Made by a program: the position numbers and the translations under genes
Notes under the pieces: model-generated
Told to the model about the DNA's origin: nothing
Seen by the model: only the letters and a program-made list of their open reading frames with translations
Database searches by the model: none
Source: Bugula neritina
Taxonomy: Eukaryota; Bryozoa; Gymnolaemata; Cheilostomatida; Bugulidae
Length of the DNA stretch: 64,000 bases
NCBI GenBank assembly: GCA_964035545.1
Contig: OZ037769.1
Span: 8,307,929-8,371,928 of the forward strand
Direction of reading: 5' to 3'
Part shown: positions 5,770-60,356 of the stretch, piece after piece
How positions within the stretch are numbered: position 1 is the first letter of the stretch
Layout of the letters: the number at the start of each line of letters is the position of its first letter

Positions 5770-5789
5770 TGTGTGTGTGTGTGTGTGCT
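5605..5789. repeat. Compound microsatellite (GTATAT / GTGTAT / GTGCGT)
   Basis: Runs pass gradually from GTATAT to TGTGTA to TGTG to TGCG and back to TGTG. Long Cys/Val or Tyr/Ile reading frames here are artefacts of the repeat. It abuts the hammerhead-like motif at 5789. Confidence 0.9.
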
Positions 5790-5828
5790 ACTCTGAAGAT
5801 GGGTACAGTGGTACCCGAAATATCAGTA
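5789..5828 (+). ncRNA. Hammerhead-like motif of a Penelope-type repeat end
   Basis: The order is TACT, CTGAAGA, hairpin GGGTAC-AGTG-GTACCC, GAAA, TATC, AGTA. CTGAAGA fits the hammerhead CUGANGA core, the hairpin is stem II, and TACT/AGTA could form stem I, but stem III is almost absent. The next 50 bases (ATTACTTTACCTAATAA) match the Penelope remnant's 3' end at 36989-37029, read on the minus strand. It is probably the end of a Penelope-like element; catalytic activity is doubtful. Confidence 0.45.
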
Positions 5829-5893
5829 TAATTACTTTACCTAATAATGTGATAAATCAACAACGTTTCTCGTATACTTATTTATATATATAT

Positions 5894-6757
<864 letters not shown>

Positions 6758-6763
6758 TCTGTG

Positions 6764-6765
<2 letters not shown>

Positions 6766-6860
<95 letters not shown>
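6766..6860. repeat. (TA)n microsatellite
   Basis: About 95 bases of TA between the retrozyme-like unit and the second copy of repeat R1. Confidence 0.95.
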
Positions 6861-19717: not shown

Positions 19718-20318
19718 TTATTCCTGTAGTGATTGAGATCTGTGTCGTGCCTGACGTGCACGTAGTCTCCGTTTCAGTCGCCCCACGGAGTCTTTTAGTT
19801 GATACAAGCCTGTCGTCGTACTGAGCAGGTCCCGGGCCAATTGTGTGAATTCTGCCTGTAACCTCAGAAGCCGTTCTTCTGCTGTTGCCAGTCGGCTAGG
19901 TCCAGGCGGGGGTGGAGTCTTCTCCTTCGTGGGAATTATCGTCGTACCGTCTTCTGTTGGAGTGTCGTGAGAAGTGATGGGGGTGGATGGTGGAGTCTTT
20001 ACCATAGGGGATCGTTGGCGGGTGGCAGTCAGTAACGTCTGGAATCCCGAAGTCAATGCAGCCAAGGTCAGGGCCTTCTTAATTACAGGCCAGATAGCTT
20101 CTGGATTTTGAGGGAAACAATCTTCATCTACCACGTGGCCTTCTCCCGCGTAGCAGGTCATCTTGTCTACGATGACGGGGTATGGGTATACATCGTGAAA
20201 CCCACACGGGCAGAAATGTAGGAGGAAGTGCGCATCTACATGCAGCCGTAGTGAGTGGTGTGAGGGACGCTCCTCTTGGCAGACCTGGCAGGTCTTGCGG
20301 GGCCACTTGGGTCCTCAC
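19718..20318 (-). CDS. ORF3 of LTR element 1 (zinc-finger-like, C-terminal helix)
   Basis: On the minus strand the frame runs from about 20305: TCQVCQEERPSHHSLRLHVD, then HFCPCGFHDVYPYPVIV, then MTCYAGEGHVVDEDCFPQ (from 20161), a Pro/Thr-rich linker and a basic helix (RLKRRLRARQARHRSQ) to a stop at 19718. The Cys/His spacing near the start looks like a zinc finger. The block from CPCGFHDVYPYP to VIKKALTLAAL is also in LTR element 2, and I associate it with the 3' ORF of some marine-invertebrate Gypsy elements. Function unknown. Confidence 0.55.
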
Positions 20319-20902
20319 GCTTCCTCAACATTTCGCTCTATCGCCCGCGACACCCATCTGTGTCGTTGGCAGAGCACCAAGGGCAGTCCATGGTCCTTTT
20401 CCGGTTTGTCGTCCATAGGTAGTGGGGTTGGCTGGTCCTGTGGCTGGGAGATAGCCATTCAAGTGTGATCTGAAAGAGTTCAACAGTGTAAATGGTTATA
20501 CACTAAAGTACCGCCGGCGTATACAGCCTGGCAGGTGTTCTGTTCAGTTAGACACTCGTGAGATTCAGGCTAATGAATAGTTGATCAAGAGCACACACCG
20601 CTATGGTAGACCACTAGGGTCTCTAAGTCAATGTGTACTCCCACCACTATTTTCATTATCGAATCTCCAGCTCGTTAACTGGTACAGTTAGAGCTGACTG
20701 ATGTAGTTTAGTTCTCGTACCAAAACAAAACTAACTCACCCCTCGAGCCAGAATAGTAAGACATTTTGAGTGAGAGTGGTAATGATTACTGTTTCTAAGT
20801 ACGTCTACTCTTGACTGCATCAGCATAAGAAAAGAATGAACAGCGTGGTTGTAAAACAAAGCTAGGACTTTTTGTTTCCGGCGCATGAATCTCGTGCGTG
20901 AT

Positions 20903-21514
20903 TCAGCCGAGGCAAAAGTTGATATTTCCGTGGTGTTCATAACTCCCACGTCTTTTTGCCCGTCTCCCTGTGCGGTACCTAGTAAGGTCTTTGTACCTGC
21001 CGCAGATGGTGCGGTCACGTACTAAGTCCTTTCGGTATGCTGGGGGTTGCCTAGTGTACTGTCCTGGAGGTGTGGTCACTGTTGGAGGCGGTGTGCTCAC
21101 TCGTGGATGGTTACGCCTCGCGAGTTGTACTTCCGGCCTGTCTGTGACAGTTGTGGTTTCTCTAGTGTCTCTATACGAAGCCCCTCCCGCGGGGGGTTTT
21201 TGCACTTCCGGATCTGTAAATGATCCTGGAAGTGGTGGCGGCAGCCTTGGTGCTGGAGGCGGTAGGCGCGCTTCCAAAGATGGAAGTGGCCTTTCCTGCC
21301 TCGCCACAACTCCTTGGGGTGTCATGGACATGATTTCGACTAGGTCGACAGCCTCCGCCTGCCAAGGCCCGTCTGCATTTTGCGTCTGCCGTCCCGCATC
21401 ACTAGGGGGACGGCCATGCTTGTTGGCCTGGCAGGTTTCGCACTGTCTCACTCGGCGTCGTACATCACGCTCCATGTTGGGCCAGTACCACCGGAGTTGT
21501 AACTTGGTGAGCAC
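20903..21514 (-). pseudogene. Integrase zinc-binding region fused to proline-rich tail, element 1
   Basis: The 203-residue frame starts LQLRWYWPNMERDVRRRVRQ then CETCQANKHG, the H2C2-type zinc-binding end of retroviral-type integrase. PWQAEAVDLVEIMSMTPQG begins the core, but the frame jumps at once to a Pro-rich tail (PPPAPRLPPPLP) and a basic end (VTTPPGQYTRQPPAYRKDLV). The DDE catalytic core is therefore missing. A His upstream (IRDTHQLAHAGV, about 21540) completes the zinc site in another frame. Confidence 0.7.
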
Positions 21515-22297
21515 ACTCTGGACTCCTGCGTGAGCCAGTTGGTGGGTGTCCCGTATCTACTCTCGGCGGTTGGCAGTTGGGCAGACCACCCTCTCCTTTG
21601 CTGGTTGTCCGTGGTTGGCGGCCAAAGACATGGTCAGCAGACCATCCGGCCCGATCCGCAGTAAGTTCCAACGTTGACAGTTCAGCCGTAACTCGGCGCA
21701 TCCCTGCCTCTGTTGTTTGTCACTGGGTTGTTGCCTTTCCTGTTTGGCTCGGTACACATCGGCTACCACCCCCGGAAAGTTTTCCTGGAGATGTCATTGC
21801 TCCCTGACGCCACCGGTCCAGAGAGGTTTGGCGCGGAGGTTGTGTACTATCTCCGGGGGCATGCCAGCCCTCTGTTGGAGTTGACTCTGGTTCCAGTCAT
21901 ACTCAGTTTCTAGAGAGTTCTGTTTGTCCGGCTTGGACGGCGGGGAACCCCTGCCCTTTCTCCTAATGGCTCTTCGAGTAGGGGCAGTCTCCGCAACCAG
22001 TGGTGCTTCATGGCGCACAGCCCTATTTAGGCTGTAAACATGGTCTCCCTGGTGGTGCTTGTGTAGAAACTTGGCTTTACTCTGGCGCTCTCCGTTGCCT
22101 ACACAGCCATCCGAATATCCGCCACGCGTCCCAGAGTGGTATGGGGCGTGGTGCGGGGCGGTCCTCCGCCCTTCAGATGAGTGCTGCCGATGACTCTCCG
22201 TCGTGGTTTCCCGCTGTCTTCTTCTTGAACAGAATGGAAGCGGCCCAGTGTAGAGCCGGACGCTAAGTTTACCGACTCCGGGAAGGGGTTGATACAC
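21465..22297 (-). pseudogene. Pre-RT and post-RNase H segments joined, element 1
   Basis: On the minus strand, LNRAVRHEAPLVAETAPTRR (the usual lead-in to a Gypsy RT) is followed directly by QLQQRAGMPPEIVHNLRA and VVADVYRAKQ...CAELRLNCQRWNLLRIGPDG, which normally follow RNase H. Several frames are used. The whole RT and RNase H are missing at this join (near 21940). Confidence 0.65.
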
Positions 22298-22326
22298 TGC
22301 ACCCAGATCTTTCCTCGTTTTGTCAG

Positions 22327-23100
22327 CTAGTTAAGACTGCGGGCGAGTTGGATTCTAGCGTGCGCACTTTTAACAACTCCCAACCTAAAGAGATAGCCAC
22401 CGTCCACTTTACAGTGAATGGTGGCCCGGAAGTGGCCGGGTATAGTAAAGCTCCGTACTACCAGTACCTCTCCCGCTAGGGAACGGCCAAAGTTATCAAC
22501 ACAGGTGAGCTCCCTATCCCCCATTAGCATCGCAGATTTACTGAAATCGATGCGACACCCGTGTCGTTGTAAGAATGGCATCCCAAGGATAACATCCTCG
22601 TTGAGCTGTCTGGCAATGAACGTCTCCTGGATGGTCTGGTCGCAGATGCGTCCATTAACCTCAGAAATATCATAGAAGGGAATGCACGACCTGTCTGCTC
22701 GGGTGCCATAATCCCCTTCGTATGGTTCCAGCCCCCTCCTGATCGTAGCGCCGAGTGTGTCAAAGAATTGACGGCTCAGGAGAATGGTGGTGCAGCCTGA
22801 GTCAAGTAGGAAGTTGGCAGGCTTGCCAGCTATCTTTCCTGGTAGGAAATAGCTGCTTCCATGGGGCTGCATCCGTACCTGCCGTGGCTGCACCTCCCTC
22901 ATCACAGGTCCAGGAATTGGTGATTGGTGACGACCGTGAACCAGCTGCGGGGGGTAAAACGACACGCCTCGGGGCGTCCGTGTTGCTTTCCTCGCAGGCT
23001 CTACAATCCGCAGTCTGTCAAATCTGTTGTGGAGCGGCACAGAGAACACAGGTGGCGAGTGGCTGGAACTGCCCACTTGCCATGTTGGTGGCAGTTCCAT
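22327..23100 (-). CDS. Retropepsin-like protease region, element 1
   Basis: A 257-residue minus-strand frame. GSSYFLPGKIAGKPANFLLD with LLDSGCTT (Asp-Ser-Gly active-site motif, about residue 115) and DVILGMPFLQRHGC (about residue 187, the hydrophobic-hydrophobic-Gly flap region) define a retropepsin. The protein normally cuts the Gag-Pol polyprotein. The frame is separate from the gag remnant. Confidence 0.75.
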   Translation of the reverse strand: MELPPTWQVGSSSHSPPVFSVPLHNRFDRLRIVEPARKATRTPRGVSFYPPQLVHGRHQSPIPGPVMREVQPRQVRMQPHGSSYFLPGKIAGKPANFLLDSGCTTILLSRQFFDTLGATIRRGLEPYEGDYGTRADRSCIPFYDISEVNGRICDQTIQETFIARQLNEDVILGMPFLQRHGCRIDFSKSAMLMGDRELTCVDNFGRSLAGEVLVVRSFTIPGHFRATIHCKVDGGYLFRLGVVKSAHARIQLARSLN

Positions 23101-23213
23101 GAGGTTGCTGAGTGGTGCCCAGCGTGGCGGCCACTACTTTGTTCTCCCTTGGGAATTCACCGGCGGCCCGCAGGAGGTGGAGCATCTGCGCGCCACGGTA
23201 ATTTAACCCCGGC

Positions 23214-24999: not shown

Positions 25000-26300
25000 T
25001 ACAGAACAGCGGATCGTGTATTGTTTACACACCAATCCATATTAGATAATAATTAACATTTAATTCGCATCAATATAATCATCTATTATATATAACAGTT
25101 TTGTACATGTTGAAAGAACATATAAATATTATATACTATAGTTTTATACATAAAATTATCACAAGTAAATTAGACAACAATGTTTTATAAAATAGCATCC
25201 AATTGAGGTTACTTAAATTGTTCTTCAACAATAGTTTGATATTCATATGTTCGTATTGTTAGAATAAAAATTGTTGACAATTATATTAGTTTAACATTTG
25301 AATTGTTACTAGAAAATTTGTTTATTTGATGTAAAAAAGTCATTTTGCAGTTACTCAATGTAAGATAAGATACCGCAGCTACATTCACCGGTTTACCTCT
25401 AACTATCAGCAGGGAGTGTGTAGATAGTAAAATTTGACAGCTGTCAGAGCTGCTAATTTCTAGCATTGTGATAGTATATTGAGGTATGTATACAACTGTT
25501 TGATTACTCTATATGCGAGTAAAATATGTCAATACATAATTTTCACAAAGATATTTACACATTAGTTTTTCCTTTACTTTAATGCATCTTTAGAGTTGCT
25601 CTGCTGCTCGAAGAAGCCTAAACTGGTTATATACTAGGACAGGCTAGATATTAGTTTTTGTCCTAATTTCTTTAGACCCAATAGTTTTTACTTTCTGGTG
25701 TTTGATACGTTGAGCTGACTAGGTGAGGGACTGAAAATAGAAAAGCTTTTGTAGTGTTGAGTTTACCCAGTGGCCTCCATGATGTAATGGTAGCACACTT
25801 GCTTGCAAGCCAGAGGTCTCGGGTTTGACTCCCAGTGGTGGCAATTATTTTACAGCTTTTTAATGCACATAATTATTTTTCAGTCTTTTTTTTTAAAACA
25901 GAAAAAATAATATTATAGGTTTAGCTGCTGCAATCCTGTTCCAAGGCATATACATTTTCTCCATGTTATTCACAATTTCTTTCAAGTTTTTTAAATAATT
26001 TTTCTATATAAGTTTGTATTTTAAAGACATGTAAAGCCAGTCAACTAATGAAAGACATGCTATTCATCAAATCCAACAAAATACCCAGAATAAATGATAT
26101 AATAGTTTTAAAGTCGGATTGAGTAGCACCCTTCTGACTCAGTGTTATAACTGCATTGCTGCGTTGGTATCATTTTCACCAGTTCAATATTTTATCATTT
26201 TCATCTTATAACTGCTTTTTTTAACAACACCCTTTAGCTAATATTCCTTTTTCTCCCATAGTTGGTTACTCTTTTACGAAGCTACTTTCTTGTGAAATTT
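25000..26300. repeat. Old segmental repeat R2, copy 1
   Basis: Blocks here recur in order at 27345-28280: CAGAACAGC, TTGTACATGTTGAAAG, TTTATAAAATAGCAT, CTTCAACAATAG, TTGCAGTTA, GATAAGATACCGCAG, ACTATCAGCAG, GACAGCTGTCAGAG, then ACAATTTCTTTCAA and TATCATTTTCACCAG. No coding potential is visible. Copy 1 contains the tRNA-like repeat at 25773. Confidence 0.6.
25773..25843 (+). repeat. tRNA-like repeat, copy 2 (best preserved)
   Basis: A 71-base tRNA-like fold: acceptor GCCTCCA against TGGTGGC with one mismatch, A box GATGTAATGGTAGCAC, T arm with GGGTTTGACTCCC (B box). The anticodon arm CTTGC-TTGCAA-GCCAG has a 6-base loop and one mismatch, so the anticodon is ambiguous (GCA or TGC register). 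Flanks are shared with the other two copies, so a SINE or retro-copy is likelier than a functional tRNA gene. Confidence 0.55.
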
Positions 26301-32041: not shown

Positions 32042-34517
32042 ATTATCTAAAATTTTATCTTATATAAAAACAGTTTTCTGACATTAAGTAAAGACTTGTT
32101 GCTTTAACACACCTCTAAGCTTTCATTTGTTTAATTGGTCAATTTGCAAACAAAACATCTCAAAACACAGTTGAGTGTCTGACGAATTGTAAGGGACTTT
32201 ATTTGCATTTATATATACTACAATAAAAAATTATTAATAATTAGCTTGATGAGCCCTAATAACTTTAATCAAAAAATATGGTAAGTATAATTATATTTAT
32301 TACACAATATGGTAACTTCTATGAAACTAAAAAATGATAGGTTAATTGGTTGTAGCACGGAGTATGCTTCAGTGCATGACTCAATGCAGTTTCCACAACA
32401 CCGAGTGTCAATCTGGTACCTTTGAATCATCAGACCAAGTTTGTCAGCTTTATGACAGCATTCTGAATCAGCTAGAGAATGGAGAGAATAAGGAAACAAT
32501 ATACTTTATGAAGTTATTTTCTATAATGATTGGTAAATATTTCATATAAAATACTCTACTCTATAAGACTTTGTTAATATATAGAAAGAAAAAATTGATT
32601 GTTTAACTGAATAATAAACAGGTGTGAATATTAACTAATACTATAAGAACTTACCCGAAACAATGTTGGATCCATGCCAAGTTTTTCAATTACAAAATAG
32701 TTAAATGTATACTGACATAATTACTTTTAGATCAGACATCTGCAGATGTGATCACTTATTACAATAGAATTATTTCTTCTACATATGAGTCCTGCCTGTC
32801 TCTTTGTTCTTGTGACCAATCTTGTGTTGCCATGTCATATGACAAGAGCTCTTCAACCTGTTTCCTGTCTGATAAACCAAATTTGCTGAACACCACACAG
32901 GAAGCAGGTAGATTCTGTTCCATGAAGGAGATTTACTCTGAAGACTTGGTAATCTATGGCTTCTCATCCAATCTTGCTAAAGGTGAAACAGCTTTCTTGT
33001 TGAAACTCTTTTGAATTACAACTTTTCTAGACAAGCGCATGAAAGATATTTGATGAGCTAATTTCGGAAATACAACTATTATAATAAATAGCAACATATT
33101 TTCAAATTTTTCATGTTAGGAACATTTTTGAATTATGGTTAATATTTTTGAAATGATTTTATCACATGTATTACATCTATTTATTCACCAAACAGTATAC
33201 TCAATCATATGACATGCATTATTCAACCAGCAAACATTACAGTTTTCTTACATTTTGTCCACCTGATTTTAGACAAAGTAGTTAACATAAGCAGCATATA
33301 CCATGCAAGGTATTCAGGCTACAAGGCTACTGATGGTATTTACCTCCCTTCTGACTCTGGTCTGGGAGAGCTTGACAGTTTAACACACACTTCACCAGAG
33401 CTGTCTCCATGGATACAAGTGGATTTAGCCATCAACTACTATGTCGATGGAGTCAAAATCTGGGACAGATCTGAAAGCCATAGTTCCGGTGGGTCAATAC
33501 AGTAATTGTTGAGATTTACAAGTTATTTGTTATAACAATGTTTCAATGTACTAACTTTTTTAAAAAAAAAATGAATAACATTTTTATAAGCTGTTTATAC
33601 TAGCTAACACGTGATAAAATTTAAAATATATTGTTAAACTAGCTTTGGCTAAAGCAAATGATTAACCTGGTGTAAACATTAGAATAAAATAACCAGCATT
33701 GAAAAGCATAGAAAACTATATCAGCTCAAACTAAAGGCTTTTATGGCTTTGTATTTACTATTGGCTGTTTACAATTTTAATTGCAAATAGAAATATTATT
33801 TATGTACATGTAGATAAATGTATGTAGTAGTCGAGCAATGAATAGTAAAATTATGACTACATGTCCAGTTTAAAATGATTACATTCCAAGTTCATAGTTT
33901 ATACCATCCTCATCTTTTAGCTAGCAATGACAGACTGGCCAATGTCAGAGTAACAGTTGGTAAAACTGATACTAAATTTGATGATCCACAAGAAGAAGAG
34001 ATCTGCGACTATCTTCCTGGACAACCACCAGCAGATATATTTCTGGTTACATGCCGTACTAGAATGTATGGTAGATATGTGAGAGTAACAGCTGTTGAAG
34101 TAAATAAAGCACTCAATATTTATGAGCTTGAGATTCATGGACTGGAAGCTTTTGGTAAGCCTTAGCAAACAAGATACATCAATATAGAGCATTTAAAAAA
34201 TTGCATAACTATAATAAAGTTTTTTTATTCAAATATAATATAACAATAGATAAAACTAGCAAAATAGATCTGCTGTATCAAATCAACATGCTATATTGAA
34301 AATAAGCAGAAATTTTGGAATGAACAAAATAGAAGAACCTTTGATAAGCACAGAGGATATAAAGTAATATATTACAAATCTAATAACCTTTTCACCCAAC
34401 TATAATGTACCTATGCTTGTTTTTTTTTATTTATTTTTAGACTATTTAGTCAAAAATCTCTGTGTAAATATTTACCTAAACAAATTTAGGCCTGAATGTT
34501 TTGTTGGACTAGTTTAA
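31581..34517 (+). CDS. Secreted PAN/apple plus fucolectin-type lectin domain protein (6 exons)
   Basis: I assemble this gene from exons 31581-31725, 32356-32532, 32731-32982, 33273-33488, 33921-34154 and 34441-34517. Every exon joins AG/GT in phase 1 and the frame stays open to TAA at 34515-34517, giving about 366 residues. Residues 1-20 (MELPLVYTPLTLLLAPALAS) are a signal peptide, so the product should be secreted. Exons 1-2 form a first PAN/apple-like module (Cys in QCSFHNTECQSG and QVCQLYDS). Exon 3 forms a second (CLSLCSCDQSCVAMSYD, then STCFL). Exons 4-5 form a fucolectin/F5-8C-type lectin domain (KATDGIY, SPWIQVDLA, YEVEIHG-like YELEIHG end, paired Cys). Such proteins bind glycans or take part in adhesion and defence; the ligand here is unknown. 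The last short exon is the least certain part: its acceptor follows a strong T-rich tract, but a downstream exon cannot be excluded. AATAAA follows at 34642 and 34672. Confidence 0.8.
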
Positions 34518-34641
34518 GCCAAATTGATATTTTCTCTGTTGTGTATGGTAGATAGTTGTTGTTGTAAATGCCGATGCATGATTAGAATCATTCTCTCTCT
34601 TATTATTTACTGCTTATAAACTAAAACCTTGTATTATCAGA

Positions 34642-34677
34642 AATAAAAATGTGTACCCAAATTACTGTCTTAATAAA
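34642..34677 (+). promoter_or_regulatory. Polyadenylation signals of the lectin gene
   Basis: Two AATAAA hexamers (34642-34647 and 34672-34677) lie 125-160 bases after the proposed stop codon of the PAN/fucolectin gene, just before the (TA)n and retrozyme block. Position fits a 3' UTR end; transcript data would decide. Confidence 0.45.
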
Positions 34678-34689
34678 AATGTTCATGGC

Positions 34690-34709
34690 AATATAGATAT
34701 ATATATGTA

Positions 34710-34744
<35 letters not shown>
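34690..34744. repeat. (TA)n at the left of the retrozyme array
   Basis: TA repeats with two interruptions, running directly into the first 272-bp unit. Confidence 0.9.
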
Positions 34745-34748
<4 letters not shown>

Positions 34749-34750
34749 CA

Positions 34751-34799
34751 ATCTGTGGACAGCAGCTGTTTCGGGGTTTGTCCCCTCATCAGCACAGAA
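34751..34799 (-). ncRNA. Type I hammerhead ribozyme, unit 1
   Basis: Read on the minus strand: stem I 5' strand TCTGTG, core CTGATGA, stem II GGGG-ACAAA-CCCC, GAA, stem III ACAG-CTG-CTGT, cleavage triplet GTC, stem I 3' strand CACAGA. All conserved hammerhead core bases are present and stem I pairs over 6 bp. Cleavage is predicted after the C of GTC (near 34758). Confidence 0.88.
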
Positions 34800-35022
34800 C
34801 AGAGTACCATGGCCCACACCTTCGCAATAGTAGAAACTTATGTTTCTACTAAAGCATATTTAAAAGGTGTGTAAACTCAAGCCAGAGAGCTCAAGTGACT
34901 CTAGGGGTCACCTAGGAGTCACGAGCCTTGCAAAATGCTAGCAGCTTGAGTTTGTGACCATGGTGAGAGAGCTCAATCACTGAATGTCATTGCTGAGCAT
35001 TAGGTGAGAGCATAATACCTCA

Positions 35023-35071
35023 ATCTGTGGACAGCAGCTGTTTCGGGGTTTGTCTCCTCATCAGCACAGAA
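35023..35071 (-). ncRNA. Type I hammerhead ribozyme, unit 2
   Basis: The same structure as unit 1, shifted by 272 bases. One change in stem II (GGAG against CCCC) leaves one mismatched pair; the core and stems I and III are intact. Confidence 0.85.
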
Positions 35072-35294
35072 CAGAGTACCATGGCCCACACCTTCGCAAT
35101 AGTAGAAACTTATGTTTCTACTAAAGCATATTTAAAAGGTGTGTAAACTCAAGCCAGAGAGCTCAAGTGACTCTAGGGGTCACCTAGGAGTCACGAGCCT
35201 TGCAAAATGCTAGCAGCTTGAGTTTGTGACCATGGTGAGAGAGCTCAATCACTGAATGTCATTGCTGAGCATTAGGTGAGAGCATAATACCTCA

Positions 35295-35343
35295 ATCTGT
35301 GGACAGCAGCTGTTTCGGGGTTTGTCCCCTCATCAGCACAGAA
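35295..35343 (-). ncRNA. Type I hammerhead ribozyme, unit 3
   Basis: Identical in core and all three stems to unit 1. Confidence 0.88.
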
Positions 35344-35553
35344 CAGAGTACCATGGCCCACACCTTCGCAATAGTAGAAACTTATGTTTCTACTAAAGCA
35401 TATTTAAAAGGTGTGTAAACTCAAGCCAGAGAGCTCAAGTGACTCTAGGGGTCACCTAGGAGTCACGAGCCTTGCAAAATGCTAGCAGCTTGAGTTTGTG
35501 ACCATGGTGAGAGAGCTCAATCACTGAATGTCATTGCTGAGCATTAGGTGAGA

Positions 35554-35556
<3 letters not shown>

Positions 35557-35585
<29 letters not shown>
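35557..35585. repeat. (TA)n at the right of the retrozyme array
   Basis: About 28 bases of TA starting inside the last base pairs of unit 3 (GAGCATATATAT). Confidence 0.9.
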
Positions 35586-35589
<4 letters not shown>

Positions 35590-36865
35590 TATTGGATTTT
35601 TGGTATATAGCTCAAAGTAATTTTTTAACTTAGAAAAAAACGTTTTATTTTATAATTTATGACTGTACATCGGAAGCAAATAATCTGACCATTGTCTCTT
35701 TTAAAATGATTAATGCTATTTAAAATGTGCTGAGCAGTTTCACAAGTCAGGCTTCATTAACAAGCTTGATTTTGGCTACTTAGTTAATCTATAATAAGTA
35801 CACTACGTGATATTAGAGTTCGGCCTTCAGAAAAGAAATCTTTGAAGTGTTAAAATGATAATACAGAAGCCTTTATATTCAACATTAATAAATTGCAATA
35901 CACTAACATTTCTAAACTACAGTTGATAGATCAATATTGTGTAACTTTATACTACATTTTGTTTTGTTTAAAGTTATAACTGATTAAGGTTTTTAGTAAA
36001 TGAAATATTATGCAAAAAAGCAACTATAATATTTATGCACATATATTGATTATATAAATCCTAACCAAAAAAATATAATCTACTTGTCTTTCATTTATAA
36101 TTTAACAGTAATATACATACTAATCAATTTTTCTTTTTATGTCTCAAGAAAAATAAGATAAGGCTTATATAGTGCATTTGTTTTATAATAGAAGCCATGG
36201 GTGACCCTTTATTGGAATTTAAAGTGTATATGCAAAACCTATAAGTTTATGAGTAACTTCACCATTATTGCTCAACAACAACATTTTGCATTTTAGTAGG
36301 CCACTGAGAACTAACTGTTTCTAAATTAAAATGTTGTGATGATTGCAAAATTAAATTTCTACAATTGTATCTCTACCCAAATTCAAGCAATTAGGAAAAA
36401 TGGATATCCAGCATCTTGAATGAATAATTCAAGTAAAAGTATTAATTGCACAGAATAGTATCCAATATTAACTAGCTGTCTATAAACAAATTTATTTGAT
36501 GAGATACCAAATTTGATTGTTTTTTTAAGTCTGCGCTTTTTCTGAATTTGTAATTTATGAAATACTATTTTAATTCAAAACCAAGTTTTCAATAGAAGCA
36601 TATGAAATGAAGGAAACAAGCAATGTAATATTAACTGCTTTTTATGCTGATAGGTAAAATATTTAAATTGAAAAAAACATATAGCATGGGAGCTTGTTGA
36701 AATCTCTTGAGCATCCGCTTAGTGAGTCTTTTATTAGTTTAGTCCCAGGTAGACGCTTCCCAGTTACACGCTAAGCTAAATTTTCCACTTGAACGTTTCC
36801 CACTTAGACGCTTCTCAGTTAGACACTATTTCTTATTTTGGTACCATATAATATAGCAATATACC
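35586..36865. other. AT-rich non-coding stretch
   Basis: No gene or known element. Near 36745-36830 a motif is repeated three times with variation (AGACGCTTCCCAGTTA, GAACGTTTCCCACTTA, AGACGCTTCTCAGTTA), a short decayed tandem repeat. Confidence 0.5.
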
Positions 36866-55830: not shown

Positions 55831-56370
55831 TTAGTTGCCCACTGAGTCCTTCAGCTGGTATAGACCTGTTGTTGTATCCAGCAGGTCGGGAGCAAGTTGT
55901 GTAAACTTGGCTTGTAGTTTTAAAAGCCGCTCTTCTACAGTAGCCAATCGGCTGGGTCCTGGTGAGGTTGTGGCAGTCTCTGGGGTGGGTGGTATCGTGG
56001 TTTCTTCTAAATCGGGGGTATAGCTAAAGTTGGCGGGGGTGGTCGATGGGGGTTTAACCATAGGAGATTTGTGGCGGGCAGACAGTGGTAATACTTGGAA
56101 CCCTGACGCTAACGCAACCAGGGTTATAGCCTTCTTGATGACCGGCTTGACGATGTCCAGATACTGTGGGAAACTGTCCTCGTCTACGATATGGCCCTCT
56201 CCGGCGAAGCAGCTCATTTTATGGACTATCACAGGGTACGGGTATACATCGTGAAACCCGCATGGGCAAAAGTGTAGTAGAAAGTGTGCGTCTACATTCA
56301 GACGCAGGGAGTGGTGTGACAGGCACTCCTCGAAACAGACCTGACAGGTCCGATGGGGTCCACTTGGTCC
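55831..56370 (-). CDS. ORF3 of LTR element 2
   Basis: From about 56350 on the minus strand: CQVCFEECLSHHSLRLNVDA, HFLLHFCPCGFHDVYPYPVI, VHKMSCFAGEGHIVDEDSFP, VIKKAITLVALASGFQ, a Pro/Thr linker and the helix RLATVEERLLKLQAKFTQLA, ending at 55831. The protein is collinear with ORF3 of element 1 with many conservative replacements, so the ORF seems to have been kept under selection while RT was lost. Function unknown; a zinc-binding N-terminal part and a helical C-terminal part are visible. Confidence 0.6.
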   Translation of the reverse strand, partial: GPSGPHRTCQVCFEECLSHHSLRLNVDAHFLLHFCPCGFHDVYPYPVIVHKMSCFAGEGHIVDEDSFPQYLDIVKPVIKKAITLVALASGFQVLPLSARHKSPMVKPPSTTPANFSYTPDLEETTIPPTPETATTSPGPSRLATVEERLLKLQAKFTQLAPDLLDTTTGLYQLKDSVGN

Positions 56371-56573
56371 CCAGGCTTCCTCAATCCTCCTTTCCGTCGC
56401 TGGTTACACCCATCGGTGTCGTCGACGAAGCACCACGGGTAGGCCATTTTCCATCACTGGTTCTTCTTCCATGGGTAAAGGGGTTGGCTGGTCCCGTGAC
56501 CGGGAGGTGGTCACTCGAGTGTTATCCTTCGATCCAGAATAGTAAGACATTTTGGAATGAGAGCGGTAAATGA

Positions 56574-57267
56574 TTAGTGTTTAGTGGCACGTCTACTCTT
56601 GACTGCATCAACGTAGGAAAAGACCGGGCAGCGTGGTTGTGAAGCGTGACTAGGGCTTTTTACTTCCAGCGGAAGAATCTCATTCATGATTCTGCCGAGA
56701 CAAAAGTTGATATTTTCGTTGTGTTCACAATTCCCACGTTTCTTTGCCTGTTTTCCCATATGAGACCTCGCTAGACTTTCATAACTGCCGCTTGTTGCGC
56801 GGTCATGTACGAAGTCTCCGAGGAAAACTGGGGGTTGCCTAGTGTGTGGTCCTGAAGGTGTCGTCACTGTGGGAGGCGGTGTGCTCACCCGTGGATTGTT
56901 ATGTCTCACGGGTGGTTTTTCTAGCCTGTTTGTGACGGTTGTTCCTACATTGGTATCTCCGTACGGAGCCCCTCCCACGGGGGGATTTTTGCACTTCCGG
57001 ACCCGTTTCTGGTTCCGGAAGTGGTGGTGGTGGCAGGCCTGTTGTTGGGGGCGGTGGGCACGCTTCCAAGGACGGAAGTGGCCTTTCCTGCCTTGCCAAG
57101 TCTTCCTGAGGGGTCATGGGCGTGTTTCCGGCCAGGACGACAGTCTCCGCTTGCCAAGACCTTCTAGCACAATGCGTCGGCCACCCCGCTTCACCAGGGA
57201 GACGGCTATGCTTGTTGGTCTGGCAGATTTCGCACTGTCTCACTCTGCGCCGGATGTCCCGCTTCAT
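56574..57267 (-). pseudogene. Integrase zinc-binding region and proline-rich tail, element 2
   Basis: LRWYWPNMKRDIRRRVRQCE with CEICQTNKHS is the H2C2-type zinc-binding module (upstream His in RDTHQQTHAGV at 57340). TPMTPQEDLARQ then goes straight to a Pro-rich tail (PPPPTTGLPPPPLP) and, in another frame, VTTPSGPHTRQPPVFLGDFV. The DDE core is absent, as in element 1. Confidence 0.7.
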
Positions 57268-57279
57268 GTTTGGCCAGTA

Positions 57280-57699
57280 TCACCGGAGTTGTAGCTTGGT
57301 GACTACCCCCTGGACCCCTGCGTGAGTCTGCTGGTGGGTGTCCCGTATCAACTCTGGTTGTCTGCTGTTGGCGGCCAAAGTCATGGTCAGCAGACCATAT
57401 GGCCCGATCCGCAGGGAGTTCCAACGTTGACAGTACAGCCGTAACTCGGCGCATCCCTGTTTCCGTTGTCTACCACTAGGTCGTCGCCCTTCTTGTTTCG
57501 CTCGGTACACGTCGGCTACCACCCCAGAAAGGTTTTTTTGGAGTTCCGGTAGCTCCCTAAAATTACCAGACCATACAGGTGTGGCGCGGAGGCTCTGGAC
57601 GGCCTCCGGGGGCGTGTCAGCCCTCTGTTGGAGTTGGCCCGAGTCCCGTGCTGGCAACGGGGACCGCGGCAGAACTCTGTTCTTCTTCTTCGGGCCCAA
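57280..57699 (-). pseudogene. Joined pre-RT and post-RNase H segment, element 2
   Basis: The 139-residue frame opens with GPKKKNRVLPRSPLPARDSG, then QLQQRADTPPEAVQSLRATP, VVADVYRAKQEGRRPSGRQ and CAELRLYCQRWNSLRIGPYG. The RRLGP that precedes RT is followed at once by residues that normally lie after RNase H. The same join occurs in element 1. Confidence 0.65.
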
Positions 57700-57767
57700 C
57701 CTCCTTGTGGGCTGCGGAGTAGGGGCGGTCTCCGCCGCCCGTGGTACCTCACGACGGGCCGCTCTAT

Positions 57768-58994
57768 TTAGGCGGGTGTCATGGTTTGTGCACCGGTACA
57801 GTGGGGCAACCTGGCCATGACATGGCGCTTTCTATTGCCCGCATAGCCACGCCTCCCTGGAGGATGGGAGGCATGGTTTGGGACGGTCCTCCGCCCTTGA
57901 GACAGGCTCTGTTGAGGACCTTCCGTCGTAGCCGCCAACGACGGCCCAATGTCTTCCTCTTGGACAGGATGGAAGCGGGCCAGCATGGACCTGGATGGTA
58001 GGTCTACCGTCTCTGAGGAGGGGTTGACGCACTGCACCAAGATCTCTCCTTGTCCCGTAAACCGGCTAAAGCTGTGGGCAAGTTGGATTCTTGAGTGCGT
58101 ACTTTCAACAACTCCCAACCTAGAGGTCTGGCCATCGTCTACTTTGCAGCGGACGGTAGCCCGGGAGTGGCCTGGTATCGTACAGCTCCGTACTACCTGC
58201 ACTCCTCCCGCTAGAGGACGACCAAACTTATCGACACAGGCGAGCTCCCTGCTGCCCATGATCATCGCAGATTTACTGAAATTGATGCGACATCCGTGTC
58301 GTTGTAAGAATGGCATCCCGAGGATAGCATCCTCGTTGAGCTGTTTGACAATAAACGTCTCCTTGATGGTCTGGTTGCGGACGCACCCAGTAAGCTCAAT
58401 AATGCCGTAGAAGGGAATGCACGACCTGTCTGCCAGGGTGCCATGATCCCTCTCATACGGTGCCAGCCCGTCCCTGACCTTAGCGCTGAAGGTGTCAAAG
58501 AACTGACGGCTAAAGAGGTTGGTGGTGCAGCCCGAGTCCAGAAGGAAGTTGGCAGGCTTGCCAGCTAGCTTTCCTGGCAGGAAGTAGCTACTCCCGTGTG
58601 GTTGCATTTGTGTGTGCCGTGGTTGCACCTCCCTTGCTGTGGGTCGAGGGGTCCATGGTTGGCAACGACTATTGACCAGCCGCCGAGGTTGGGGCGGTAC
58701 GCCTTGCAGCGCCTGTACCGTTTCCCTCGCAGGCTCTGAGGTCAACTGTCCGTCGGATCTGTGCCGGAGTGGCATAGAGGGCCCAGGTGGCGAGTGGCTT
58801 GGACAGCCTACTTGCCGTAGGGGTCGCCACTCCACAGTATCCTCGCGTGGCGCCCAGCGGGGCGGCAGACGTTTTGTCCTCCCTGGGTGATTTACCGGCG
58901 GCCCGCAGAAGGTGGGAACACCTGCGGGCCGTGGTAGTTTAACCTTTGTTGGAGTTGAGGGCAGTTCTTCTAGAAATGTCCAAGCCTTCCGCAT
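57768..58994 (-). CDS. Retropepsin-like protease ORF, element 2
   Basis: A 408-residue minus-strand frame. LLDSGCTTNLFSRQFF (about residues 157-172) holds the Asp-Ser-Gly active site, and DAILGMPFLQRHGC (about 234) is the downstream Gly-containing strand. The frame differs by one from gag, and the zinc-knuckle coding region overlaps its first codons. The C-terminal 90 residues lead toward RT but the frame ends at 57768 where RT would start. Confidence 0.78.
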   Translation of the reverse strand: MRKAWTFLEELPSTPTKVKLPRPAGVPTFCGPPVNHPGRTKRLPPRWAPREDTVEWRPLRQVGCPSHSPPGPSMPLRHRSDGQLTSEPARETVQALQGVPPQPRRLVNSRCQPWTPRPTAREVQPRHTQMQPHGSSYFLPGKLAGKPANFLLDSGCTTNLFSRQFFDTFSAKVRDGLAPYERDHGTLADRSCIPFYGIIELTGCVRNQTIKETFIVKQLNEDAILGMPFLQRHGCRINFSKSAMIMGSRELACVDKFGRPLAGGVQVVRSCTIPGHSRATVRCKVDDGQTSRLGVVESTHSRIQLAHSFSRFTGQGEILVQCVNPSSETVDLPSRSMLARFHPVQEEDIGPSLAATTEGPQQSLSQGRRTVPNHASHPPGRRGYAGNRKRHVMARLPHCTGAQTMTPA

Positions 58995-58996
58995 CC

Positions 58997-59854
58997 CTAG
59001 CAGAATATATGCCCCGTGCCTGGTGATTGTGCCTGCGGCCCGCGAGGCTCACGGGCAGTATCTACCTGGCTTGGGGGAGCTAACGTGGTGACCAGTTTGG
59101 CTAGCATGTCAGTCATCTGAGCGACTTTCGATGCTACTGTCATCTGGGTCACATTAGCCACCGCGGAGGGTTCCGCATTTGGTTCAGTATGAGTAGTAGT
59201 GTGCTTCGTGGCCACCTGGTGGTAGGCCACGCGGTTGCGGTGCATGTGAGTTGCCAAGAGGTAGGCTTCTCCTACCGCGAGTGCATCCTCGACCGTGGTG
59301 ACTCCCCTCGCTTGGAACTGATGGTGGAGTTCCAAGTCGTTGATGGACTGCCTGAAGGCATCATAAGTATACCTCTCACGGTTCGCTTGAGGCAGATCGC
59401 GGAACGCGATCTGCGCCAGCGTCATCACCGTGGTAGCGTGCTCCTGCAGCGGCGTGTGAGGATCACGCCGCAGCCTTTGTAGGCGGGCCCGCGCATCTAT
59501 GGCAGAGATACCAAAACGGGCCCGCAGAGAAGCGAAAATCCCGTCTATGTCAGGTCCCGCTCCGTATGGCTTAGGCTTGTCCGTCAGCGCCATCCTGAGT
59601 TTGAGCAACGCCACCCTTGGTGGCCACCGTGCAACTTCCATCACATCTTGGAATTCCTGGATAAATTGCTCTACGGCTTCCTCGCCTGTGAAAGTGGGCG
59701 CCTTCAGCCGGTATCTGTCTTCACTGGGCTCTCTAGGAATTCTCACTTCTTCTAACACTACTGGTTCCACAGGTATATCAACATTATCTTCCTCACCTTC
59801 ATTCAGTGGAATGGGTCGCTCCGTACCGTTTTCTGCCATGACTGTTATACGCAA
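58997..59854 (-). CDS. Gag ORF, element 2
   Basis: 285 residues from MRITVMAENG to the zinc knuckle. YRLKAPTFTGEEAVEQFIQE and GIFASLRARFGISAIDARAR with LRRDPHTPLQEHA are typical of Gypsy Gag capsid regions (retrotransposon gag family). The ORF begins 20 bases inside the 5' LTR boundary. It ends TGHIFC then TAG (58997-58999), between the first two Cys of the knuckle C-x2-C-x4-H-x4-C; a second TAG follows eight codons later. Confidence 0.8.
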   Translation of the reverse strand: MRITVMAENGTERPIPLNEGEEDNVDIPVEPVVLEEVRIPREPSEDRYRLKAPTFTGEEAVEQFIQEFQDVMEVARWPPRVALLKLRMALTDKPKPYGAGPDIDGIFASLRARFGISAIDARARLQRLRRDPHTPLQEHATTVMTLAQIAFRDLPQANRERYTYDAFRQSINDLELHHQFQARGVTTVEDALAVGEAYLLATHMHRNRVAYHQVATKHTTTHTEPNAEPSAVANVTQMTVASKVAQMTDMLAKLVTTLAPPSQVDTAREPRGPQAQSPGTGHIFC

Positions 59855-59855
59855 G

Positions 59856-59874
59856 ATCCCACCGCTGCCACCAC
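59856..59874 (-). promoter_or_regulatory. Candidate primer-binding site of element 2
   Basis: The minus-strand sequence directly after the 5' LTR is GTGGTGGCAGCGGTGGGAT. Its place next to the LTR end fits a tRNA primer-binding site. The matching tRNA was not identified. Confidence 0.5.
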
Positions 59875-60224
59875 TGTAGTAATTCGTGTAATTGCTGTGC
59901 GTGAGTTTTCTACTTGCGTATTTAATTGGCTATTCTACTAGCAATCACTAGGGTAGCTGTCGAGTAATTACTTTTATTATTCACAATACAATACAAAACG
60001 AACATAACATCAAATTACACTATAACATCAGTCACTACTAACACATGTTTACACTTCAAGCCCTCGCTTACAACAACGTGATGATGGCTAATTGCCCGGA
60101 AACTGTCACATGAGTCGGAAGCATATCTTCCAGTTCTTCTGATTGGTTACTACATTGGGGCCTTATTATTCCAAGAATGGAGAGAGGACGATTCTTATAT
60201 TATTACATTGCGTGACCCACTACA
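59875..60224 (-). repeat. 5' LTR of element 2
   Basis: 350 bases, TGTAGTAATTCGTG to GACCCACTACA on the plus strand; full length, with only scattered differences from the other LTR, so the insertion is fairly young. Confidence 0.88.
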
Positions 60225-60285: not shown

Positions 60286-60356
60286 GTCTCCGTGGTGTAA
60301 TGGTAGCACACTTGCTTGCAAGCCAGAGGACTTGGATTCGATTTCCAGTGGTCGCA
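60286..60356 (+). repeat. tRNA-like repeat, copy 3
   Basis: GTGGTGTAATGGTAGCACAC, TTGCTTGCAAGCCAGAGG and a good T arm with GGATTCGATTTCC (B box). The acceptor stem pairs poorly (GTCTCCG against TGGTCGC). Flanks resemble the other two copies. Confidence 0.55.

Follow-up and report, generated by a model that had tools for sequence, protein, structure and literature searches.

A tandem hammerhead repeat in Bugula neritina as a probable animal retrozyme inserted at TA microsatellites

A tandem repeat at positions 34743-35558 of a 64,000-nucleotide stretch of Bugula neritina DNA (contig OZ037769.1, positions 8,307,929 to 8,371,928; hereinafter the window) is best explained as one genomic copy of a non-LTR retrozyme of animals, which probably moved by (TA)n-primed reverse transcription with an enzyme supplied in trans by a Penelope-like element. 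We give this reading as a whole a probability of about 0.7. The family is of a known kind, the metazoan retrozymes, with an unusually informative insertion record. An earlier note made from the sequence of the window had proposed an animal retrozyme here, and this identification is supported by the size of the unit, its type I hammerhead, its tandem arrangement, the absence of a long reading frame, the self-pairing of the RNA, the dispersal of the copies and their recent amplification.

The array and its hammerheads

The array was called by TRF at 34743-35558 with a period of 272, 3.0 copies and 99% matches, and the array scan gives 3.0 units with an identity of 99.9%. The three 272-bp units, on the minus strand, lie at 34743-35014, 35015-35286 and 35287-35558 and belong to the subfamily designated A below. 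They are near-identical, as had been stated. Specifically, units 1 and 3 show no difference, and unit 2 carries a single change at unit position 41 (window 35055). The longest stop-to-stop frame in the tandem has 49 codons, i.e. there is no coding frame.

The minus strand of units 1 and 3 reads TCTGTG-CTGATGA-GGGG-ACAAA-CCCC-GAA-ACAG-CTG-CTGT-C^CACAGA, which provides the hammerhead core together with three stems: stem I of 6 bp, stem II of 4 bp closed by a 5-base loop, and stem III of 4 bp closed by a 3-base loop. The type I hammerhead of unit 1 (34743-34806) is complete in core and helices by motif and pairing, with putative cleavage at 34758/34757 (RNA ..CTGTC^CACAGA..). The hammerhead of unit 3 (35287-35350) is the same, with putative cleavage at 35302/35301. 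In the hammerhead of unit 2 (35015-35078; putative cleavage at 35030/35029), the single change converts stem II from GGGG/CCCC to GGAG/CCCC and leaves one mismatch. All three units carry a minus-strand hammerhead motif of type I, as had been noted, that of unit 2 with a mispaired stem II.

The pattern CTGATGA-N13-GAAA occurs four times in the 64-kb window, compared with 0.04 expected from shuffles; three occurrences are in the array, and the fourth, at 6504-6527, goes unmentioned in the earlier note. A covariance-model check, which the earlier note had recommended, came out negative: no hammerhead reaches the gathering score of Rfam in the whole window, and a permissive scan of 34000-36300 returns only Hammerhead_II, the type II model, at 18.2 bits and E 2.1 in unit 2. 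Because core and helices are complete, this miss does not count against the hammerhead motif; it concerns detection and not a trait by which the published family is defined, but it is a point against the retrozyme explanation. Since Rfam failed as an arbiter, motif, pairing and copy number were used in its place.

The array is bordered by an (AT)n tract on each side. The tract at 34691-34745 (TRF) adjoins the edge that is fixed in 67 of 68 genomic pieces (see below), and it would represent both target and primer; the start of reverse transcription is placed, by inference, at about 34743-34748. The tract at 35556-35585 (TRF, array scan) adjoins the variable edge, corresponding to the 5' end of the RNA, and would be the other side of the target. 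The high identity of the units had been read as a sign of recent amplification. The recency stands; as for the process, one template copied several times per insertion is more likely to account for the identity within the array than local amplification of DNA.

A second retrozyme copy was found by motif and array scan at 6483-6763, on the minus strand. It comprises 1.04 units of subfamily B and is degenerate, with stem I changes in its hammerhead; at 4.26% substitutions relative to its subfamily consensus, it is older than the array. TRF calls (AT)n tracts to its left (6354-6481) and to its right (6766-6859). The 5'-truncated 3' end of a Penelope-like element, of the likely helper family, lies at 5787-5893 on the plus strand and ends in (TA)n; it was located through a pattern place (G000:C5:8313721-8313751, window 5793-5823) and by reading the sequence. 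Between this 3' end and the second retrozyme copy, an inverted-repeat element of ~460 bp (GAAGACCTCAAAAG.../...CCTTTGAGGTCTTC) occupies 5894-6353 between TA runs. A single AT tract here thus seems to have received three insertions.

Other features of the window include two tRNA-like sequences at 25773-25843 and 60286-60356, alike in sequence and scoring ~32 bits with the Rfam tRNA model, which are possibly tRNA-derived SINEs. Two related, GC-rich (51-56%) LTR-type elements lie on the minus strand. The element at 19718-23133 has matches to gag-type aspartic protease and to an integrase zinc-binding domain, and the protease match of the element at 55831-59929 is under the Pfam cut-off.

Copies in the genome and their edges

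A 35-nt hammerhead pattern, with up to two mismatches allowed, matches 539 places in the 215.8 Mb genome, and the reversed pattern matches none. The copy-number check thus excludes a repeat confined to a single locus, which the earlier note had named among the refuting outcomes. A DNA search with one unit gave at least 79 matches (40 scored of 712 candidates), and a scan of viral contigs with the hammerhead pattern gave none.

Copies were taken from two samples. The first comprises 40 regions covering the first 45 of 100 listed hammerhead places and is systematic by position on C1 and C2; the second comprises 20 shorter regions from best matches or multi-copy places and is not systematic. Of the eight loci of the first DNA search, four overlap with others and were left out of the array scan. 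Together with the window and one copy from that search, and minus five same-place duplicates, the regions give 68 array pieces, with the copy at L077 outside the set. Long arrays and young ones are over-represented in this set, which contains hardly any pieces that lack a hammerhead. Length statistics come from the systematic subset, i.e. 43 of the 44 pieces of L009-L048, with one internal fragment at L046 omitted.

Thirteen columns split the pieces into subfamily A (272 nt, 34 pieces), which includes the window array, and subfamily B (271 nt, 31 pieces), which includes the copy at 6.5 kb; three pieces are unassigned. The median number of substitutions from the subfamily majority is 0.52% for A (33 pieces) and 1.0% for B (31 pieces), with L051 excluded because the array scan merged its two arrays. 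No substitution relative to the consensus is present in 10 of 64 pieces. Both A and B have therefore moved recently. Arrays of more than 1.1 units account for 24 of the 68 pieces in this set enriched for long arrays, with a maximum of 5.06 units, and 35 of the 43 pieces in the systematic sample have 1.05 units or fewer. Release of a monomer would be possible for only a minority of insertions, because only 5 of the 43 systematic pieces reach 1.22 units and hold two hammerheads.

The longest array read (L049, G000:C9:3146058-3147417) has five units, and at its end the sequence of the unit junction is repeated in a short, rearranged form. Two arrays of ~1.6 units, separated by a 157-bp spacer, are present at L051 (G000:C8:2722281-2723303); both stop at unit position 161, suggesting that a whole insertion was duplicated. 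Opposed neighbouring retrozymes occur with their fixed edges face to face at L061 and with their variable edges face to face at L060.

The edges of the pieces define the insertion footprint. In plus orientation, 67 of the 68 pieces start at unit position 15 or lower, and 53 of the 68 start exactly at position 1; the one piece that deviates is the fragment at L046. The cleavage site lies between unit positions 15 and 16, which places the start no more than 15 nt downstream of it on the ribozyme strand. Nearly every insertion therefore carries the cleavage junction.

The other edge is variable. Right ends spread across the unit, with lengths of 0.18-3.07 units in the systematic subset and up to 5.06 units overall. 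They fall in the TA-rich zone at the unit junction in 15 of 68 pieces, versus 5.5% expected, and at or near the cleavage run-off position in only 2 of 68. Measured over 35 junctions, the microhomology by which right ends extend the AT run of the flank has a mean of 1.86 nt, versus a null of 0.70.

When ten or more alternating A/T letters no farther than 40 nt away count as an AT flank, 55 of the 68 pieces have (AT)n on the left, 49 on the right and 43 on both sides. The background is 0.4-1.5% (for flank 40-mers of these loci, 12 of 3280; for 40-mers of the window, 23 of 1554). No (AT)n run is found on the left in 13 and on the right in 19 of the 68 pieces, which counts against the best explanation. 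Because the flanks are mostly (AT)n, a target site duplication is indistinguishable from the tract.

In terms of the hammerhead-bearing RNA, the 3' start is constant and lies shortly after the ribozyme, and the 5' end varies. These edges point to target-primed reverse transcription with TA microsatellites as targets, from RNA that would have been intact across the cleavage site. A linear cleaved monomer would be unfit as template, because it has only ~15 nt upstream of the start site. The copies are longer than such a monomer allows, so the template would have been either re-ligated (circular) or uncleaved. A circle would be the simpler of the two, given the intact ribozyme, the circular retrozyme RNAs described elsewhere (PMC7229834) and copies of up to five laps.

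Differences within arrays bear on the same point. By majority, 23 of the 24 arrays of more than 1.1 units are of a single subfamily, the exception being L025, an old array; many last units in this unit-by-unit test are short and have only one or two diagnostic sites. Counting a variant as shared when every unit of the array has it and the consensus does not, there are 6 shared columns compared with 127 private ones, of which the mis-joined L051 contributes 70 and a short deletion in L048 another 11; this preponderance counts against the best explanation. In the remaining 23 arrays, with L051 set aside, substitutions account for 45 differing columns, and 4 of these differences are seen again, letter for letter, in another array (P 0.17 for a null mean of 2.2). 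The within-array variants fit decay mostly after insertion. Across the 24 arrays, neither shared versus private variants nor recurrence separates circle from oligomer.

RNA folding, the candidate helper and rival explanations

The 272-nt circle folds at -101.7 kcal/mol (z -6.7, 60 shuffles). RNA of unit length from the other strand has almost as much structure (z -6.1), which counts against the best explanation. Tested on the fold of subfamily A alone, the 13 differences between A and B include two compensatory pairs (C-G to U-A and G-U to U-A; null 0.13, P 0.004); at a further, third pair both sides have changed and the pairing is gone. Inside the hammerhead, no compensatory (two-sided) change was found among 18 variants. 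Pairing of the hammerhead in the variants is 94.4%, versus 94.7% in column shuffles, with slid controls at 27-51%. The absence of covariation in the hammerhead is a point against the best explanation, yet it is expected, because the copies decay from two close masters.

A lone hammerhead folds at -16.3 kcal/mol, compared with -18.7 kcal/mol for a fold that sequesters the core, so it is not the minimum-energy structure, again a point against the best explanation; the hammerhead of unit 2 folds at -12.6 kcal/mol. Two hammerheads co-fold at -45.7 as a double hammerhead, with both stems III fused into one helix of ten pairs that contains a single mismatch. From these computed energies we infer that arrays may be cut via paired hammerheads and that circles with one hammerhead may be protected.

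A search for Penelope-type reverse transcriptases, with a generic 265-aa motif as the query, gave 66 matches with 45-46% identity over positions 2-265 and a best E of 1.8e-59. The Penelope-like protein matches RVT_1 with E 1.9e-10. Stop-free open frames of 696, 715, 734 and 777 aa are present in four of the 66 matches, the others being shorter or broken. Among the loci read, L074-L076 have open frames of 734, 696 and 715 aa, respectively, and L077 is truncated. The 3' ends of all 12 copies inspected (four loci and eight copies fetched by distance from the reverse transcriptase match) lie in (AT)n. Six of them stop at CTATTTAT, and six stop after 25-31 nt more, before the AT tract. Because 12 of 12 ends lie in (AT)n, the Penelope-like element is the likely donor of the enzyme to the retrozyme.

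The Penelope-like element carries a hammerhead-like sequence, CTGAAGATGGGTACAGTGGTACCCGAAA, that starts ~90 nt ahead of its 3' end and is found at 352 places genome-wide (reversed control, 0); in this region there is no Rfam match and no convincing stem I by eye. The C-terminus of the protein (VYKITC..TYVGETGRRLSHRIHEH) may, as judged by eye, resemble GIY-YIG. Pfam and PDB sequence searches for GIY-YIG on this C-terminus were negative, the Pfam miss being a point against the best explanation, a single-sequence structure model had a pLDDT of 34 and was unusable, and the one GIY-YIG match of Pfam genome-wide lies elsewhere than in the Penelope-like element.

At two places, C3:9905323 and C3:11210709, a retrozyme is found less than 300 bp away from the 3' end of a Penelope-like element. 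At the latter (L077), retrozyme and Penelope-like element sit tail to tail on one AT tract. The two families differ in the orientation of close pairs. Among the first 100 of the 352 places, Penelope-like 3' ends form 26 close pairs, 23 of them with an outward orientation, as two-sided insertion would give, whereas among the first 100 of the 539 retrozyme places 10 of 12 close pairs are on the same strand (tandem units or neighbours), one is outward and one is inward. The two reactions are therefore not identical.

LINEs were considered as helpers and are disfavoured: one copy each of four types, with approximate 3' boundaries, has no (AT)n tract of the retrozyme type downstream. At L073 (1690-2400), a LINE is followed soon after its reading frame by an array of ~43 bp units containing TATATATA; the TA runs of this LINE are only 10 nt and lie inside the tandem repeat.

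The following steps would account for the insertions. Minus-strand transcripts of multi-unit arrays would be cut into 272-nt monomers by their hammerheads, probably paired as double hammerheads. The monomers would be ligated to circles, which have a single hammerhead, could form no double hammerhead in cis and hence would remain closed. Reverse transcription would start where the footprint is seen, at GAUUGAGGUAU, which follows the cleavage site by 10-15 nt on the downstream side; as primer it would use a (TA)n tract whose 3' end pairs with UAU at the start site. Synthesis would cross the re-ligated or uncleaved junction and continue for 0.2 to 5 unit lengths. It could stop anywhere, favouring A/T microhomology, and the other end would rejoin (AT)n. 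The enzyme would come from the Penelope-like element, in trans, as the common target suggests.

Several rival explanations share part of this evidence. The same target-primed insertion may have used uncleaved oligomeric or read-through RNA as template, with a hammerhead that is slow or inactive. We regard this as unlikely, though it deserves serious weight. It would suit the energy of the lone hammerhead, which is not the favoured fold, the oligomers that arrays of up to five units could yield, and the four within-array differences that recur in a second array, a number within chance. In the anole PLE, the ribozyme is dispensable for insertion and, in vitro, cuts only with protein added (Frangieh 2024, PMC11167929). 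It is harder to reconcile with the state of the hammerheads, since 27 of 44 distinct 64-mers keep a core of 11/11 and at least 16 of 17 pairs, and with the scarcity of long oligomer sources (5 of 43 pieces with 1.22 units or more), despite which multi-unit arrays keep arising. That the repeat is ordinary satellite DNA, spread via extrachromosomal circles or AT-tract recombination with an incidental hammerhead, is very improbable. The units are tandem and AT tracts are recombination-prone; yet 67 of 68 pieces share one edge to within a few nt, namely the edge that is 3' on the ribozyme strand, with the other edge free, RNA pairs have changed in a compensatory manner between the subfamilies, and most sampled pieces (35 of 43) do not exceed 1.05 units.

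The enzyme, too, may be different. Another reverse transcriptase that uses (TA)n, for example that of a LINE, could have taken the place of the Penelope-like one; such enzymes are plentiful in the genome (150 scored RVT_1 matches of 2124 candidates), and the LINE control is weak, with one copy for each of four types and inexact 3' boundaries. The four LINE copies lack an (AT)n tract, compared with 12 of 12 Penelope-like ends that have one, and we consider a different enzyme to be a minority prospect. It is improbable that the AT tracts are a product of the insertion, made by slippage at the UAUUAU start site or as a tail, and not its target. Many left tracts are pure and long and the start site is UA-rich, as slippage would have it, but (AT)n also lies at the variable edge in 49 of 68 pieces, beyond the reach of slippage at initiation. 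At L026 (2300-2700), the AT tract that holds a retrozyme has on either side an arm, in inverted orientation, of a repeat that matches dozens of places in the genome. The tract there is continuous with the repeat, dozens of whose matches run into TA repeats, which argues in part for a pre-existing target. A search for an empty site with the joined flanks of L026 found the left arm to be unique and no full empty paralogue, and copies of the right arm enter TA repeats. Target-primed insertion into (AT)n by a Penelope-like enzyme thus remains our preferred explanation.

Relation to known elements

The metazoan non-LTR retrozymes, as described by Cervera and de la Pena (2020, PMC7229834), were found by RNAmotif and have monomers of ~150-450 bp with a GC content below 50% (text) or below 45% (figure legend). 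Their published traits also include linear and circular RNAs in tissue, cleavage of their own RNA in vitro and, in some cases, duplicated target sites. Like them, the B. neritina family is a small, non-coding, dispersed repeat with a type I hammerhead that occurs as dimers to multimers, its RNA is highly self-paired, and Penelope-like elements are present in the same genome. The monomers of A (272 bp) and B (271 bp) are within the size range, and the GC content of the unit, 0.46, is under 50% and slightly over 45%. Unlike the retrozymes as described there, the family inserts in (AT)n and has a defined internal start beside the cleavage site; the main text of that paper contains no occurrence of microsatellite, target site, AT-rich or rolling. 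The B. neritina ribozyme also looks dimer-prone, a property reported in PMC7229834 for amphibians and not for invertebrates. In the open-access literature, of which coverage is incomplete, we found no report of an (AT)n target or of a start beside the healed junction in animal retrozymes. Penelope-like elements have been named as strong candidate helpers of metazoan retrozymes (PMC7229834, PMC7761336), and AT-rich targets of Penelope elements are already published (PMC3846280, PMC11167929).

The insertions are similar to those of Penelope/Poseidon-type elements as these are described in PMC11167929 and PMC3846280, namely in the AT-rich target, the start of reverse transcription inside the RNA downstream of the hammerhead, the 5' truncation, the optional tail of 30-40 nt and the partial tandem and inverted copies. 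The 25-31 nt of extra sequence at Penelope-like ends in B. neritina resembles the optional tail and paired start sites described for the anole element (PMC11167929). Unlike the Penelope/Poseidon elements so described, the retrozyme has no protein, starts ~15 nt from the cleavage site, has one start region instead of two and rarely forms outward pairs.

The carnation small viroid-like RNA bears hammerheads as well. Its DNA copies lie in microsatellite-like sequences, and copies also occur in a pararetrovirus (PMC9695139); it differs from the present family in that it is a plant RNA and that the account in PMC9695139 gives no insertion footprint. Plant LTR retrozymes, as summarised in PMC7229834, are likewise non-coding hammerhead retroelements, with a circular RNA intermediate, but they have a type III hammerhead, a size of 600-800 nt, LTRs and 4-bp target duplications. 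The schistosome W-elements (PMC8490949) are comparable in being both satellite-like and dispersed, some with functional hammerheads; they differ in a presumptive target duplication, and the text of PMC8490949 contains no occurrence of microsatellite.

The 2020 papers (PMC7229834, PMC7761336) settle neither which enzyme mobilises animal retrozymes nor whether it copies the circle. In B. neritina, helper and parasite have an unusual target in common, the start of the cDNA is located next to the cleavage site with a precision of a few bases, and linear cleaved monomers are, by the footprint, disfavoured as template. The double-hammerhead reading offers an answer to a question raised in PMC7229834, namely why abundant circles with an intact ribozyme stay uncut. 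Tentatively, and with the odds somewhat against it, the family may be seen as a fossil record of a Penelope-type enzyme that primes on TA microsatellites by the healed junction and laps a ribozyme-made circle a variable number of times, with a ribozyme that works best when paired. If so, transcripts of arrays would be cut while circles with one ribozyme would be immune, and AT microsatellites would be the common niche of helper and parasite.
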